Shown: in pieces, positions 95 through 11,476 of the stretch
Layout: every line of letters begins with the position of its first letter
Position numbering within the stretch: the stretch's first letter is position 1
Origin: Pseudomonadota bacterium
GTDB taxonomy: Bacteria > Pseudomonadota > Gammaproteobacteria > Burkholderiales > Burkholderiaceae_D
Assembly: GCA_023435945.1 (NCBI GenBank)
Contig: JAEZLB010000314.1
Location: 1 to 11,479, forward strand
Direction: 5' to 3'
DNA length: 11,479 nucleotides
The notes under the pieces: generated by a model
Told to the model about the DNA's origin: nothing
Seen by the model: only the letters and a program-made list of their open reading frames with translations
Database searches by the model: none
Program-made: the position numbers and the translations under genes

Positions 95-1516
95 TCATGC
101 TCGGCCGTAGCGGTCTTGCAGGCGCACGATGTCGTCTTCGCCCAGGTATTCTCCGGATTGAATTTCTATAAGTTCAAGAGGAATTTTTCCCGGATTTTCC
201 AGCGAATGCACGACTCCGACCGGAATGTAGGTGGACTGGTTCTCGGTTAGTAGATATTCGTTGTCGCCATTGGTGATCTTTGCGGTGCCCGATACCACCA
301 CCCAGTGTTCGGCACGGTGGTGATGCATTTGCAGTGAAAGCTTGGCACCTTGTTTGACGGTAATGCGCTTGACTTGAAAACGATTGCCCCTGCCTATGGA
401 ATCGTAAGCGCCCCACGGGCGGAAAATCTTGCGATGCTGAGTCGCTTCGGGACGTTGAGCATCGCTGAGTCGTTTCACCACCTGCTTGGCCTGCTGGGCA
501 TGATCGGCGTCCATAACCAGTACCGCATCCGGCGTTTCGACAATGACCACATTTCGCAGGCCGACCGCAACCACCAGGCGGTTGGTGCCATGCACCAGGC
601 AACTTTCGCATCCTTCTAGCAATGCATCGCCCTGGGTGGCATTGTTGTGTTCATCTTTGTCGGCGGCTTCCCATACCGAGGACCAGGAACCGATGTCGCT
701 CCAGTCGGCATTTAGCACGACCATTGCCGCATTTTGCGTGCGCTCCATGACAGCATAGTCGACGGCAATATCCGGATTCTTGCCATAGGCAGCCGCATCC
801 AGGCGAATGAAGTCGATGTCCTGTGCGGCGTCTTTCAGGGATTCGCGGCATGCTTTCAGCACTTCGGGCTGATGCATTTCCATTTCATCCAGGAAGGTAC
901 GGGCGCGGAACAGGAACATGCCGCTGTTCCAGTAATAGTTGCCGTTCGCGATGTACTGTTCAGCCGTGTGCCGATCCGGTTTTTCCACGAACTCCAGTAC
1001 CGGCCGCGCACTGTCAGGATCGGGTTCATTGGCGCAGATATAGCCATAACCGGTTTCTGCACGCGCCGGTTTGATGCCGAAAGTCACCAGCTTGCCGTCG
1101 AGCGCAGCCCTGGAGGCGACCTCGATGGCGCGATGGAAGGCAGCCGTGTCCTTGATCAGGTGATCGGACGGCAGTACCAGCATCAACGGATCTTCATGCT
1201 TGGCTAAAGCGCAGAGTGCTGCGCTGGTGATGGCCGGCGCAGTATTGCGGCGCATCGGCTCCAGCAGGATCTTTGCATGGTGTATGCCCGCTTCGCGCAA
1301 TTGCTCGGCGACGACGAAGCGCGAGGATTCGTGCGTGACCATCACGGGTTCCGTTACCTGCGGCAGGCCCGATACTCGCTGTACCGTGCGTTGCAGCAGG
1401 CTTTGTGTTCCCAGGAGCTGGAGAAACTGCTTGGGGTAAGTGTCGCGTGACAGCGGCCAAAGACGTGTGCCCGATCCACCGCACAGGACTACCGGAATGA
1501 GAGGACTGGAATTCAT
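95..1516 (-). CDS. manC: Mannose-1-phosphate guanylyltransferase / mannose-6-phosphate isomerase (ManC/AlgA type)
   Basis: A 473-residue bifunctional enzyme of the type II phosphomannose isomerase/GDP-mannose pyrophosphorylase family; length is normal. The N-terminal nucleotidyltransferase part carries the signature GGSGTRLWPLSR (residues 13-24), then LEPMRRNTAPA (85-95), PSDH (116-119) and FVEKP (176-180). The C-terminal cupin part carries the metal-binding HHHRAEH run (398-404) and ends with the family-typical GEDDIVRLQDRYGR. It makes GDP-mannose from mannose-1-phosphate and GTP and interconverts fructose-6-phosphate and mannose-6-phosphate in the cytoplasm, feeding exopolysaccharide, capsule or O-antigen synthesis. 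Its ATG overlaps the stop of the upstream hydrolase gene in an ATGA (1513-1516), and its own ribosome binding site is weak, so translation is probably coupled. After the TGA the same frame stays open for 22 further codons (to about 28), probably by chance. No phosphomannomutase is present in the window. Confidence 0.95.
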   Translation of the reverse strand: MNSSPLIPVVLCGGSGTRLWPLSRDTYPKQFLQLLGTQSLLQRTVQRVSGLPQVTEPVMVTHESSRFVVAEQLREAGIHHAKILLEPMRRNTAPAITSAALCALAKHEDPLMLVLPSDHLIKDTAAFHRAIEVASRAALDGKLVTFGIKPARAETGYGYICANEPDPDSARPVLEFVEKPDRHTAEQYIANGNYYWNSGMFLFRARTFLDEMEMHQPEVLKACRESLKDAAQDIDFIRLDAAAYGKNPDIAVDYAVMERTQNAAMVVLNADWSDIGSWSSVWEAADKDEHNNATQGDALLEGCESCLVHGTNRLVVAVGLRNVVIVETPDAVLVMDADHAQQAKQVVKRLSDAQRPEATQHRKIFRPWGAYDSIGRGNRFQVKRITVKQGAKLSLQMHHHRAEHWVVVSGTAKITNGDNEYLLTENQSTYIPVGVVHSLENPGKIPLELIEIQSGEYLGEDDIVRLQDRYGRA

Positions 1517-2046
1517 GATCGTACCGTTGCGAAATAAGCCTGGGTGTAAGGATGAACGCTTGGCAGATAAGCGACGCGATCTTCGTCAATCCATTGATAT
1601 TCACTGTGCTGCTGTTTGGGCAGGTGCCATTCGTGCCGGTTTATCCTCAAGCGGTAAGCCAGCACAATGTAATGGGTGGTCCTGCCTGCTATGCCCGTGA
1701 AGTCGGTCTCATAGAAGTGTTCATAGATGCCGATCAGGCTGGCCTCGGAACGCATGGCGGAGACGCCGGTTTCCTCTTGTATCAGACGGGTAAAAGCCTG
1801 GTCCAGCTTTTCTCCCTTGCGCACGCGCCCGCCCGGCACGAACCAGTAGTCCTTGGCAGGGGGATTCTTGCGCAGGCCCAGCAGGATTCTTCCCTGCGCA
1901 TCCTCAATGATCAGATCGATGGAAACCAGCGGAGCATTGGCAACCACTGCTGCAAAGACTTCGGCCGAGAGTCGTTCCGGGGAGCCGACAGGAGCGGAGG
2001 AGTCGCTACTGGGGCGAACCAGTGCGGCGCGGGTGTCAGTAGGCAT
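1513..2046 (-). CDS. gmm: GDP-mannose mannosyl hydrolase (Nudix family, Gmm/WcaH type)
   Basis: A 177-residue Nudix-type protein. The APLVSIDLIIED stretch (residues 38-49), YWFVPGGRV (67-75) and the modified Nudix box from GGRV to EETG (72-94) match the GDP-mannose mannosyl hydrolase branch, as do the YEHFYETDF and THYIVLAYR stretches. Family members hydrolyse GDP-mannose (often GDP-glucose too) to GDP and the free sugar by attack at the sugar carbon. The protein is about 20-25 residues longer at the N terminus than typical Gmm; the family-like part begins near LSAEVF (residue 26). The ATG at 2046 is the only good start, as no ATG or GTG lies between it and the conserved part. It overlaps the wcaJ-like gene by 11 bases and manC by 4. 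Placed beside manC, it probably tunes the GDP-mannose pool or recovers GDP. Substrate choice among NDP-sugars is inferred. Confidence 0.88.
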   Translation of the reverse strand: MPTDTRAALVRPSSDSSAPVGSPERLSAEVFAAVVANAPLVSIDLIIEDAQGRILLGLRKNPPAKDYWFVPGGRVRKGEKLDQAFTRLIQEETGVSAMRSEASLIGIYEHFYETDFTGIAGRTTHYIVLAYRLRINRHEWHLPKQQHSEYQWIDEDRVAYLPSVHPYTQAYFATVRS

Positions 2047-3445
2047 TCTTGCCAGTCCATCCCTTGAATGCGGTCCAGAGTATGATCTTCAGATCCATCC
2101 AGAATGACCAGTGCTCGATATAGTGCAGATCAAACTGCACGCGCTTGGCCATTTTTTCATCGGTGTCGGTTTCGCCGCGGAAGCCATTGACCTGCGCCCA
2201 GCCGGTGATGCCTGGCTTGACACGATGGCGCAGCATGTACATTTCCAGCCGCTCCTTGTACATCTCGTTGTGCTGAAGGGCGTGCGGACGGGGGCCGACC
2301 ACTGACATTTCTCCACGCAGCACGTTGATGAACTGCGGCAGTTCATCCAGGCTGGTGCGGCGCAGGAAACCACCAAAAGGCGTGATGCGCGGATCGTTCT
2401 TGGTCGCCTGCGTTACTTTTCCATGCTCCTGGTGCATTTTCATGCTGCGGAACTTGTACATGTCAAACGGCCGCCCATTCAGGCCCAGGCGCTTCTGCTT
2501 GAAAAAGACCGGGCCGGGCGAGCTCATCTTGATGCCAACCGCGATAACCAGGAACAACGGTGCGAGCAGCAGGAGTGCTACCGCTGCAAACAGCTTGTCG
2601 AACAAATCCTTGACAATGCCCCCCACGTCATTGGCGGCAGGCTGATTTAGTTCAACCGTGGGCACCCCCAGGAAATTGGTGATCTTGCTGTTGAAGATAC
2701 GCATGCTCAGCGTATCCGGCACCCAGCGTATGTCTACCAGCGCATTGCGCAACAGATACTGCAGGCTGTGAAGCTGCTGGGAGGCGCTTAGCGGCAGAGT
2801 GATCCAGATCTCATGGATATTGTTCTGCAATACATAATCGTTGATATCTTCCAGTGCATTGATCTTGTCGACCTGATGGGTGTCGATGGCGGTGGGATGC
2901 TGGTTGCCGGTATAAATGGCTTTCACTTCATAGCCATACCAATGCTGCTGGTTGGTGCGCTGAAACATTTCTTGACCGGTGCGTCCAAAGCCAACGATGA
3001 GCACATTCTTGTTATTCAGGCCACGCTTACGCAGTCCGCGCAAGAAGGAATGCAGAATGAAGCGGGATACCACAAGAAAGACAATGCCGGTGCCGTACCA
3101 GTAGAACAACCACAGGCGGGACAGCGCGGAAATCTGATTAATCAGAAAGGCAAAGAACAATCCGATCAGCAATACCACGCCCCATGATATGGCCAGTTGA
3201 CGGAACAGAGCCGGCATCGTGCGCCCGCGCCACGAACTGTATAAATGCAACTGTGGGAACAGCAGGAAGGCTACTCCACAGCAGAAATAAAGCAGGATGA
3301 GATGAACAGCTGCGGCTTCCTGATCAACAGCGCCGCTAAACCTGATAAGTCCGGCAAGCTGGCCTGCCAGCCATAAAGAGAGGACCTCAATGATGCGTAC
3401 TGAGAATTCCAGGCGAGAAGAGTTTCTGCTGATTAAGTCTTGCAT
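2036..3445 (-). CDS. wcaJ: Undecaprenyl-phosphate sugar phosphotransferase (WcaJ-like, polyprenyl glycosylphosphotransferase)
   Basis: A 469-residue membrane protein, the usual size for the WcaJ/PssY-type initiating enzyme. Four hydrophobic segments lie near residues 20-36, 45-66, 84-103 and 110-130. A Rossmann-like cytoplasmic domain with VLIVGFGRTG (148-157) follows. A fifth hydrophobic segment (about 284-305) leads into the C-terminal bacterial sugar transferase domain, with KFRSM (331-335), the catalytic-type SLDELPQ (365-371), VGPRPH (383-388) and KPGITGWAQVNG. The family transfers a hexose-1-phosphate, commonly glucose, from the UDP-sugar to undecaprenyl phosphate at the inner membrane. 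This is the first step of exopolysaccharide or capsule repeat-unit assembly. It is the first gene of the visible operon, followed with overlaps by gmm and manC. The ATG at 3445 has no strong Shine-Dalgarno sequence. The exact sugar cannot be read from the sequence, and a role in another glycan is possible. Confidence 0.9.
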   Translation of the reverse strand: MQDLISRNSSRLEFSVRIIEVLSLWLAGQLAGLIRFSGAVDQEAAAVHLILLYFCCGVAFLLFPQLHLYSSWRGRTMPALFRQLAISWGVVLLIGLFFAFLINQISALSRLWLFYWYGTGIVFLVVSRFILHSFLRGLRKRGLNNKNVLIVGFGRTGQEMFQRTNQQHWYGYEVKAIYTGNQHPTAIDTHQVDKINALEDINDYVLQNNIHEIWITLPLSASQQLHSLQYLLRNALVDIRWVPDTLSMRIFNSKITNFLGVPTVELNQPAANDVGGIVKDLFDKLFAAVALLLLAPLFLVIAVGIKMSSPGPVFFKQKRLGLNGRPFDMYKFRSMKMHQEHGKVTQATKNDPRITPFGGFLRRTSLDELPQFINVLRGEMSVVGPRPHALQHNEMYKERLEMYMLRHRVKPGITGWAQVNGFRGETDTDEKMAKRVQFDLHYIEHWSFWMDLKIILWTAFKGWTGKNAY

Positions 3446-4254: not shown

Positions 4255-5730
4255 ATGATTGCTCCAGACACCTATATCCTTCTTGCTCTTGCCCTGGTCA
4301 TCATCGCATTGCAGGTGGTACTCCTGCTGCGCAACGGCAAGAGCCGCCAGGAATCGCAATTGCTGCAGATGCAGCGCGACCTGGAGCACCAGGTTCAGCA
4401 CGCCAATGAACGTACCGAACGAGAGTTGCGCCAGGAAGTGCAGATCAGTGCACAAAGTACGCGCCAGGAAATCGGCGCTCACCTGGCCCAGTTCCAGCAA
4501 ACGGTGGCAACGCAATTAACGAGCGTGGCCACGTTGCAGAATACGCAGATAGACGGCTTTGCCCAGCAACTGGCCAAATTGGTGGAAGCCAATGCACGCC
4601 AGCTCGAATCCATGCGCCAGGCCATCGCCGAGCAGGCCAAGTCCGGGCGCGAAGAGCAGGCGCTGGCGCTGAAGCACCTGGGCGATACGCTGAACCAGGC
4701 CTTGTCGGCGCTGGCCGAATCGAATATGCAGCGCATGACGGAAGTGCGCAATACCCTGGAGAACAAGCTGCGCGAACTGCAGGCCGACAATGGCGCTCGT
4801 CTGGAGGAAATGCGCAAGACCGTGGATGAAAAGTTGCATGCCACCCTGGAACAGCGTCTGGGCGAGTCTTTCCGCCTGGTATCGGAACGCCTGGAGAAAG
4901 TGCACCAGGGCTTGGGCGAGATGCAGCAACTGGCGCTGGGTGTCGGCGATCTGAAGCGCGTGCTGACCAATGTGAAAACGCGTGGTACCTGGGGCGAATT
5001 CCAGCTTGCCAACCTGCTGGAACAGATGCTCACGCCAGACCAGTATCAGAAGAATGTGGAAACCGTGCCGGGCAGTGGCGAACGCGTGGAATTCGCAATC
5101 AAGCTGCCGGGCCAGGACGATGGCGGCAGGCCGGTATGGCTGCCCGTCGATGCCAAGTTCCCGAAAGAACAATACGAACGCCTGGTCGATGCCGCCGAGC
5201 ATGCAGATGCCGATGGTGTCAATGCAGCGGGTAAGGAGCTGGAGCGCGTGGTGCGCAGCGAAGCCAAGACCATCTGCGAAAAATATGTGTCGCCACCGCT
5301 CACCACCGATTTTGCCATTCTGTTCCTGCCGACTGAGGGCCTGTATGCGGAAGTCATGCGCAGGCCTGGACTGGCCGACGAAATCCAGCGTCTGCATCGT
5401 GTGACCATTGCCGGGCCGTCCACGCTGGCAGCGTTGTTGAACAGTCTGCAAATGGGCTTCCGTACGCTAGCGCTGGAGAAACGCTCGTCCGAAGTATGGC
5501 AGGTGCTGGGTGCGGTCAAGACCGAGTTCGCCAAGTTCGGCGATGTGCTGGCGGCCACCAAGGCCACCCTGGAAAAAGCCGCCCGCAATATCGAGCAGGC
5601 GGAAACCCGCAGCCGCGTGATGGCGCGCAAACTGAAGACAGTGGAGGCGCTGCCCAGCGAAGCGGCGCAGCGCCTGCTGGGACCGGATACCTTGGAAGTC
5701 GGAGATGAGTCGGATGACAAGCAGGCATAA
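4255..5730 (+). CDS. rmuC: DNA recombination protein RmuC
   Basis: A 491-residue RmuC family protein. One N-terminal membrane segment lies near residues 6-27 (LLALALVIIALQVVLLL). A long Gln/Glu/Arg-rich coiled coil (about 30-215) and the conserved RmuC domain follow. The domain contains TRGTWGEFQL (242-251) and PVDAKFP (297-303); Glu248, Asp299 and Lys301 resemble the acidic/lysine pattern of PD-(D/E)XK nucleases, which is inference. RmuC was described as limiting inversions at short inverted repeats in E. coli and has been linked to defence against foreign DNA; its biochemical activity is poorly settled. The ATG at 4255 begins directly with the membrane segment. An in-frame GTG at 4225 would add ten hydrophilic residues and has its AAGG too close. 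The 3' end overlaps dsbD by 26 bases. Confidence 0.92.
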   Translation: MIAPDTYILLALALVIIALQVVLLLRNGKSRQESQLLQMQRDLEHQVQHANERTERELRQEVQISAQSTRQEIGAHLAQFQQTVATQLTSVATLQNTQIDGFAQQLAKLVEANARQLESMRQAIAEQAKSGREEQALALKHLGDTLNQALSALAESNMQRMTEVRNTLENKLRELQADNGARLEEMRKTVDEKLHATLEQRLGESFRLVSERLEKVHQGLGEMQQLALGVGDLKRVLTNVKTRGTWGEFQLANLLEQMLTPDQYQKNVETVPGSGERVEFAIKLPGQDDGGRPVWLPVDAKFPKEQYERLVDAAEHADADGVNAAGKELERVVRSEAKTICEKYVSPPLTTDFAILFLPTEGLYAEVMRRPGLADEIQRLHRVTIAGPSTLAALLNSLQMGFRTLALEKRSSEVWQVLGAVKTEFAKFGDVLAATKATLEKAARNIEQAETRSRVMARKLKTVEALPSEAAQRLLGPDTLEVGDESDDKQA

Positions 5731-8993: not shown

Positions 8994-9027
8994 AAAAACA
9001 AGGCAGCCATCTGGCTGCCTTGTTTTT
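8994..9027. terminator. Strong bidirectional intrinsic terminator between convergent genes
   Basis: AAAAACAAGGCAGCC (8994-9008) and GGCTGCCTTGTTTTT (9013-9027) are perfect 15-base complements around the four-base loop ATCT. The arms end in A5 and T5, so a GC-rich stem followed by a U-tract is made in both directions. It ends the DUF481 gene on the plus strand and the moaA-moeA unit on the minus strand. The moeA stop codon (9026-9028) lies on the edge of the stem. Confidence 0.93.
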
Positions 9028-10312
9028 ATATCAGGCCTTCGAACAAGACCACATCGACCTCATCGCCGGCCTGAATTCCGCCCTGTTCGTGATTCAGCAC
9101 GATCATGCAATTGGCTTCCGACATGGAGCGCAGGATGCCCGAACCTTGCGAGCCGGTGATGTTCACGACGCGTCGCCCTTGGTCGTCGAGAGCAAGGATG
9201 CCGCGCTGATATTCGGTGCGGCCCGCTTTCTTGCGTATCGGGGTTTGCGAGATGGCCCTCATCATCGGTAAGGGCTGTGCATCCGCACCCATCATGTGCA
9301 GCAAGGCTTCTCGCGCAAAGAAGTAGAAGGTCACCATCACGGCCACCGGATTGCCGGGCAGGCCGAACAGATAAGCGCTCTTGCCATTGGAGTTGATGCG
9401 GCCGAAGGCCATGGGGCGGCCCGGGCGCATGCCTATCTTCCAGAAAGTCACATCACCGAGCTGGGCCATCATCTGCTTGGTGTAATCGGCAGCGCCCACT
9501 GAAACGCCACCTGAAGTAATGATGGCGTCCGCATTCTCGCAGGCCGACCGGAAAGTCGCTTCCAGCAGCTCCGGTTCATCCTTTACCACGCCCATGTCGA
9601 TGATGTCGCAACCCAGGCGCGTGAGCATGCCGTAGATGGTGTAACGATTGCTGTCATAGACGCAACCCTCATCCAGCGGTTCGCCTATGGAGCGCAGTTC
9701 ATCGCCGGTGGAAAAGAATGCCACGCGCAGCCGGCGTGTCACGGGCACTTCTGCGATGCCCAGCGAGGCAAGCAATCCAAGGTCCGCAGGGCGCAGAATT
9801 TTTCCTTTTCTGAGGGCGGGCTTGCCTGCTGCAAGGTCTTAACCAGCCAGGCGCCGGTTGTCGCCGGGTTTCACTACGCCGGCCGGCAGCGTAATCTGCT
9901 GCGCGCTGGCAGCGCGGACGAATTCCTGCGGCACCACCGTGTCGCACCTGGCGGGCATCACGGCACCAGTCATGATTTGTACGCATTCGCGCGGTTTTAC
10001 TTCGCCTTCATGGGCACGGCCGGCATAAGCAGTGCCTATCACTGTCAGTATGAGGTCCTTGTCCTGCTGTAGATCGCTGCCGCGCAGCGCATATCCGTCC
10101 ATCGCGGAATTGTCGTGTGCAGGCACATTGATCGGGCAGATGATGTCCTGGGCCAGTACACGGTTCAGTGCACTCCGGATTGCGACTTTTTCAGTCGCCT
10201 GGATGGGCGTGACGAATTGCCGGATGATTTGTTGCGCGTGAGATACCGGCAGTGCATCGGGATCATAATCGGACAGGCAACTGACGACTTCTGACAGGGT
10301 AGGTTGAGTCAT
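9026..10312 (-). pseudogene. moeA: Molybdopterin molybdenumtransferase MoeA, interrupted by an in-frame TAA
   Basis: The whole 429-codon reading frame is MoeA, but codon 158 is TAA (9839-9841). The upstream piece (157 residues, 9842-10312) has the N-terminal MoeA features DNSAMDGYA (67-75) and IMTGA (113-117), and stops right after PGDNRRLAG. The frame continues with no shift: DLAAGKPALRKGKILRPADLG follows directly, then FSTGDEL, GGVSVGAADY (268-277), MRPGRP (295-300), GLPGNPVAV (317-325) and the C-terminal domain to the end. The family has Glu where the stop lies (G-E-D), so a single GAA-to-TAA change explains it. Intact MoeA ligates molybdenum into adenylylated molybdopterin with MogA-type activity upstream. 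The downstream piece could start only at a poor TTG (9775) or internal ATGs without a clear ribosome binding site. The gene is next to moaA, 48 bases after its stop. Everything else looks under selection, so the lesion is recent or a sequencing error. Confidence 0.9.
9839..9841 (-). other. moeA: Premature ochre codon (TAA) at codon 158 of moeA
   Basis: The plus strand reads TTA here, i.e. TAA on the coding strand, between GGT (Gly157) and GAC (Asp159). A plus-strand C at 9841 instead of A would give GAA (Glu) and one continuous MoeA of 428 residues. TAA is not a selenocysteine or pyrrolysine codon, and no slippery run adjoins it, so programmed recoding is unlikely. Confidence 0.9.
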
Positions 10313-10360
10313 TTTCTTGTTCTCTCAACGGAAGGAGGAGGGCAGTGTTCGTGCGAGCGA

Positions 10361-11476
10361 TCAACCGCCGATATAGGACATTTCGACTTTTCTATCCGCG
10401 CGTTTCAGTTCGCCGGTATTGGCCATGCGAAGTTCGGAATAACGGTCATTGCGTGCACGCCACAGGTGAGCGATGACAGTGGAAATTTCCTCATTGCTGC
10501 TGCCATTGCGCAGCAATGCGCGCAGGTCATGACCGCCGGTCGCAAACAGGCAGGTAAACAATTTGCCTTCCGTAGACAGGCGGGCGCGTGTGCAGGTGCT
10601 GCAGAAAGCTTGCGTGACGCTGGAAATGACGCCGATCTCGCCGCCGCCATCGGTGTAGCGCCAGCGCTCGGCAGTCTCGCCGGTGTAATTGGGCGAGATG
10701 GCTTCCAGTGGCATCTCGGCGGAGATCCGGCGTACCACTTCAGCCGACGGGATGACTTCATCCATCTTCCAGCCATTGGAGCTGCCTACATCCATGTATT
10801 CGATGAAGCGCAGGATGAAGGGCGAGCCTTTGAAATAACGCGCCATCGGCACGATTTCGGAATCGTTGGTACCGCCCTTGACCACCATGTTGACCTTGAT
10901 CGGACCCAGTCCGACCTTGTGCGCGACGTCGAGTCCGTTCAGCACATCGGACACAGGGAAATCCACGTCATTCATGCGACGGAAAACCGTATCGTCGAGC
11001 GCATCCAGCGAGACGGTCACGCGTTTTAAGCCTGCATCTTTCAGAGATTGCGCCTTGCGCGCCAGCAGGGAAGCGTTGGTAGTGAGCGTGAGATCCAGTT
11101 CGCGGCCGGAAGGTGTGCGTAGCGCGGCCAGCATTTCGATCAGGCGCTCGATATTCTTGCGCAGCAGCGGCTCACCACCGGTCAGGCGGATTTTCTCGAC
11201 GCCGTGCGTGACGAACAGTTTGGCAAGGCGCGTGATCTCCTCGAAAGTAAGCAAGGAGGAGTGCGGCAGGAATTTGTAATCCTTGTCGAAGACTTCACGC
11301 GGCATGCAATACACGCAGCGGAAATTGCAGCGGTCCGTGACCGAAATCCGCAAGTCGTGCAGGGGCCTGGCCAGCGTATCGGACAGCAGGCCGGTAGGCA
11401 CCTCCAGATGTTCCGGAATCGCGGGAACGGATTCCAGATAGCGGTGATCGACGAGTGGGATGATTTTTTCAGTCAT
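10361..11476 (-). CDS. moaA: GTP 3',8-cyclase MoaA (molybdenum cofactor biosynthesis)
   Basis: A 371-residue radical SAM enzyme, full length. The N-terminal cluster motif CNFRCVYC (Cys50, Cys54, Cys57) binds the SAM-coordinating 4Fe-4S cluster. GGEP (100-103) is the SAM-binding GGE motif. The C-terminal cluster cysteines are Cys292, Cys295 and Cys309 ([10 protein letters not shown], then FTCLF), which bind GTP through the second 4Fe-4S cluster. The chain ends in the required Gly-Gly (370-371). It converts GTP to 3',8-cyclo-GTP, the first step of molybdopterin synthesis, which MoaC completes. The ATG at 11476 lies three bases from the window edge, so its ribosome binding site and any earlier start cannot be seen. 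No Met occurs between it and the cluster motif. It is followed by moeA on the same strand; MoaC, MoaD/E and MobA genes are not in the window. Confidence 0.95.

Follow-up and report, generated by a model that had tools for sequence, protein, structure and literature searches.

Does a single in-frame stop codon in a molybdenum cofactor gene mean that its carrier has lost molybdenum insertion? The question is raised by the window, the whole 11,479-nucleotide stretch of DNA analyzed here, in which moeA is interrupted by a TAA. A preliminary description had proposed that the strain keeps MoaA and loses molybdenum insertion, and nitrate reductase activity with it, unless a second moeA, re-initiation or suppression compensates, or unless the stop is a sequence error. 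We weighed these outcomes against the window and the relatives of the gene.

A single TAA divides the moeA frame

The moeA gene lies on the minus strand, starts with the ATG at 10312, and comprises 429 codons, the last being the TAA at 9028-9026. Codon 158 is also a TAA (9841-9839, minus strand), the sole stop besides the true end; apart from it, the frame is open from 10312 to 9026. The internal stop in moeA of this contig is therefore confirmed as an observation, and so are the other structural points of the preliminary description: one nonsense codon divides an otherwise well-kept moeA, both pieces share one frame (their starts, 10312 and 9775, are separated by 537 bases), and the later motifs GGVSVG, MRPGRP, and GLPGNPVAV are all intact in the piece downstream of the internal TAA. 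The features of the locus are as follows.

10361-11476, minus strand: moaA (GTP 3',8-cyclase), intact; TIGR02666 at 384.7 bits (cut-off 284.05)
9842-10312, minus strand: N-terminal MoeA piece, 157 codons upstream of the stop; MoeA_N at 118.4 bits, profile positions 2-132 of 160
9839-9841, minus strand: internal TAA; Glu in relatives; E. coli MoeA position 141 by alignment, adjoining D142
9776-9838, minus strand: 21 conserved codons that follow the stop, up to the first in-frame ATG, GTG, or TTG; 76% mean identity; hold the invariant Asp
9026-9775, minus strand: C-terminal MoeA piece with the true stop; PF00994 at 119 bits, PF03454 at 76.6 bits
8994-9027, no strand assigned: perfect inverted repeat, each arm 15 bases or longer, overlapping the true moeA stop; A-rich start, T-rich end

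The domains of the C-terminal piece are the molybdopterin-binding domain (MoCF_biosynth) and MoeA_C (domain IV), so that MoeA_N, MoCF_biosynth, and MoeA_C stand in order within a single frame, which one stop interrupts. No uninterrupted full-length product above the curated MoeA cut-off of 440 bits is encoded, the N piece scoring 153.4 bits and the C piece 383.5 bits. The intact relative P0001 is 428 amino acids long, equal to the number of codons of the window moeA before the last stop, and its MoeA_N domain is covered to position 160 of 160 in the profile search.

Upstream of moeA, moaA encodes 371 amino acids with 94% identity to P0241, and the two genes are separated by a gap of 48 bases (10313-10360) that holds no gene. 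An upstream moaA was found for 62 of 80 genomic relatives; the gap measures 7-118 bases in 11 of these, the nearest five relatives among them, and 582-832 bases in the other 51. For 18 of the 80 no upstream moaA was seen, five of which had too little DNA. We considered and rejected the idea that the operon had decayed by losing an intervening gene, as the nearest five relatives share the short gap. At the other end of moeA, the inverted repeat at 8994-9027 probably serves as a two-way terminator common to moeA and the facing DUF481 gene. It was not listed by our promoter and terminator pattern scan, and between 8900 and 10450 such patterns were in no excess over shuffled sequences. Elsewhere in the window, 95-3445 (minus strand) holds polysaccharide genes, namely a WcaJ-type glucose phosphotransferase, a GDP-mannose mannosyl hydrolase-like NUDIX protein, and a mannose-1-phosphate guanylyltransferase/isomerase. 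The dsbD frame as listed begins 26 bases within the end of rmuC (5705-5730), and its true start may be further in.

The interrupted position is an invariant glutamate in relatives

The nearest relatives of the window moeA are Oxalobacteraceae. Closest among the genomic relatives are L001-L006, which comprise Herminiimonas-labelled MAGs, Noviherbaspirillum, and Keguizhuia and show 82-84% identity over the C piece. The proteins P0001 to P0005 are closer still, at 88-93% identity for the C piece and 78-85% for the N piece. The 157-amino acid N piece is itself a listed protein (P0121) with one member, found on a single 25,497-base contig, and the protein listed after it is 82% identical; the window C piece is absent from the 120 proteins listed. 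P0001 had matches at E values up to 1e-150 in 338 of 392 genomes, the other 54 being without a match at so strict a limit, and none of the P0001 matches listed contained an internal stop.

To describe the site, 116 of the 120 listed proteins (420-436 amino acids) were combined with 77 of the 80 loci, giving 193 sequences, or 187 after removal of identical ones. At the stop site all 187 aligned relatives have Glu, followed in every case by Asp; in this wider alignment positions 157-160 read G, E, D, and L without exception. A Glu codon likewise replaces the stop in all 80 genomic relatives, in keeping with the preliminary description, which had expected Glu where the TAA stands and had called for this comparison. 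A stop at this site was found in neither the 80 loci nor the 187 aligned proteins. All 80 genomic relatives have the same 66-base interval as the window between the two pieces, measured from where the N piece ends to where the C piece begins; their frame is unbroken over the available DNA (3 of the 80 pass its 5' edge), and the 21 residues past the stop share a mean of 76% identity with them. As judged from these alignments, the match to relatives across the break exceeds chance. The stop aligns with position 141 of E. coli MoeA, directly before D142, a residue that we take to matter for activity. In the sense codons of the window moeA, 108 of 3843 possible single-base changes create a stop, so that one such lesion is unremarkable and not improbable in itself.

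The remaining gene shows ordinary constraint

At sites conserved in at least 98% of sequences, the window moeA carries one change before the stop and none after it, compared with averages of 0.26 and 0.57 in the other 187; at sites conserved in at least 95%, it carries one and none versus 0.52 and 1.44. The one change before the stop is at position 59 and is common to P0001 and P0004. We also calculated pN/pS against the 5 of the 80 loci that had gap-free matches over both whole pieces. The values for the window were 0.374 (N piece), 0.146 (linker), and 0.185 (C piece), and those among the five relatives were 0.365, 0.197, and 0.166. Neither relaxed constraint nor further lesions in moeA were seen in the conserved-site test or in pN/pS; such marks of a pseudogene would be expected to be missing if the lesion were very recent. 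The intact conserved sites and ordinary pN/pS indicate that ordinary constraint acted on moeA up to the very recent past, or continues to act on it. The statement that decay has barely begun thus holds, provided that the stop is real.

A second MoeA-type gene in relatives

The family of G004, the genome of Noviherbaspirillum suwonense that contains locus L004, is related to the source of the window. MoeA_C matches in its 195 genomes numbered 0 in 2, 1 in 7, 2 in 182, and 3 in 4, so that 186 of 195 had at least two; these are domain matches counted by eye from a table rather than proven whole genes, in genomes that came with no completeness value. At least two MoeA_C matches were also present in 22 of 22 hand-picked genomes behind the 80 relatives.

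The second MoeA-type gene was located between thrC and moaE in all six loci fetched (L083-L088, hand-picked). It is uninterrupted in all six and keeps GED and four further motifs. The first of our six motif patterns failed for L088; it failed even for the intact P0001, which shows that this pattern was too narrow. The L086 copy is 38.6% identical to P0001, a representative of the window type. Against the MoeA equivalog model, which has a cut-off of 440 bits, the two paralogues scanned reached 409.2 and 387.9 bits and three window-type proteins 575-583 bits; given these scores, the paralogue may not be equivalent to the window type.

Functional data on duplicated moeA genes come from two other bacteria. 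In the betaproteobacterium Cupriavidus necator, according to the portion of PMC11540253 available to us, moeA1 and moeA2 knockouts are slightly less fit, and its authors hold that each moeA can partially compensate for the other. In Methylorubrum extorquens, the accessible part of PMC13197769 describes moeA copies specialized for W or Mo.

Discussion

Judged from relatives, molybdenum insertion has probably not been lost in this cell. The preliminary description's forecast of lost molybdenum insertion and nitrate reductase activity does not stand as the likely outcome, in view of the at least two MoeA_C matches in 186 of 195 and 22 of 22 genomes and the slight impairment of the C. necator knockouts in the part of that study seen by us. 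That physiological claim had no more support than any single internal stop would give. The alternatives that it named, a sequence error and a second moeA, were in our judgment the right ones.

The reading that we prefer, and to which we give about an even chance, is that the TAA is a very recent, isolated nonsense change in an uncultured member of the Oxalobacteraceae, which probably has two moeA genes and in which one of them has thereby become a null allele. Translation would end after 157 residues, and the molybdopterin-binding and C-terminal domains would be unmade, or made only as a dead piece. The stop would then be present in the cell, this genome would carry the paralogue that its relatives have between thrC and moaE, and molybdenum insertion would continue through that paralogue. 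Such a loss would be tolerable given the multiple MoeA_C matches in both genome sets, the intact paralogue in six of six loci, and the slight knockout effect in the available C. necator text. Some considerations count against a null allele. The stop is known from one contig and is unaccompanied by a second lesion, as an error would also predict. Redundancy is not universal, 7 of the 195 genomes having one match and 2 having none. Finally, the paralogue is possibly non-equivalent, as suggested by its scores below 440 and by the W and Mo specialization described in the accessible part of the M. extorquens study.

The stop would also be explained by a faulty base call or consensus in this single contig, or by the assembler's adoption of a minority variant, with the population carrying a normal MoeA of 428 amino acids. 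We consider this a serious possibility, somewhat short of an even chance; this weight and that of a real null allele are our judgment and were not computed. An error would account for a stop that is seen in one contig, at a site invariant in 187 of 187 relatives, and in a gene without other decay. There is also precedent: in the part of PMC11017572 available to us, of 10 pseudogenes selected from one public genome, 6 turned out to be errors, and spurious internal stops are linked to low coverage and low read quality. Against this, the family matches of the 8 other window genes that were scanned show no sign of truncation, so that the contig is not rich in errors, and the usual presence of a second copy makes moeA a gene in which true null alleles are likely to survive.

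It is very improbable that the gene works in two parts, with the N piece joining a C piece translated from a start beyond the stop to form an active enzyme. The idea draws on the conservation of both pieces and on the in-frame start codons within 71 codons past the stop (TTG 9775; GTG 9748, 9742, and 9724; ATG 9628). A split enzyme is also thinkable because a MoeA active site sits where subdomain II of one monomer meets III/IV of its partner, as stated in the portion of PMC9458074 that was accessible. The details of the site speak against it. The first in-frame ATG, GTG, or TTG comes only 21 codons after the stop; the purine-rich stretch in this interval precedes ATT/CTG at 9799-9794 and no ATG, GTG, or TTG; MoeA_N is cut at position 132 of 160; and the gene is split here in none of the 80 relatives. 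Moreover, the Asp adjoining the stop, invariant in 187 of 187 and corresponding to E. coli D142 by alignment, is absent from both products, so that re-initiation should not yield a working enzyme and is unlikely as the rescue once suggested.

Readthrough or recoding of the TAA into full-length MoeA is the least credible reading, even with a downstream frame that is fully conserved: TAA is the terminal codon of the globin gene, of rmuC, and of moeA itself in the window and is thus a working, normal stop here, the window has no Rfam match at gathering thresholds, and none of the 80 loci or the 187 aligned proteins has a stop at this site. Recoding would have been marked by relatives sharing the stop or by TAA being unused as a terminator, and we found neither. 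Selenocysteine is inserted at TGA and pyrrolysine at TAG, and neither is known to use TAA.

If the null allele is real, it would offer a natural test of whether the two Oxalobacteraceae moeA copies are interchangeable. A further step, that the lineage is just starting to shed its moaA-linked MoeA and to rely on the moaE-linked paralogue alone, appears doubtful to us; if true, the window would be a snapshot of the first step from a duplicated cofactor enzyme to one working copy, before other decay. By itself the stop is of little importance, being ordinary either way, as a fresh loss that is probably tolerated or as a sequencing error. Its lesson is that reads and paralogues should be checked before physiology is drawn from one internal stop in a singleton contig.

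Compared with known MoeA systems (NF007960/PRK10680; E. coli MoeA, PDB 1FC5 and 1G8L), the window pieces share the three Pfam domains, their order and frame, and the motifs. P0001 aligns with E. coli MoeA over residues 32-427 and scores 582.5 bits (cut-off 440). Unlike E. coli MoeA, the window moeA has a stop at the position of residue 141, leaving pieces of 153.4 and 383.5 bits that each fall below 440. As with the internal-stop pseudogenes of bacterial assemblies in the available part of PMC11017572, a single internal stop interrupts a gene that is intact in its neighbors; unlike those pseudogenes, the window moeA had no near-identical neighbor among the proteins compared by which a real stop could be told from a spurious one, the closest being 93% identical over the C piece. 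A close parallel in gene order is the C. necator moaA-mobA-moeA2 arrangement, in the portion of PMC11540253 available to us, where moeA2 is likewise close downstream of moaA and a further moeA lies elsewhere in the genome. In contrast to that arrangement, the window has no gene between moaA and moeA, and its moeA may, by its neighborhood, be the ortholog of C. necator moeA2.
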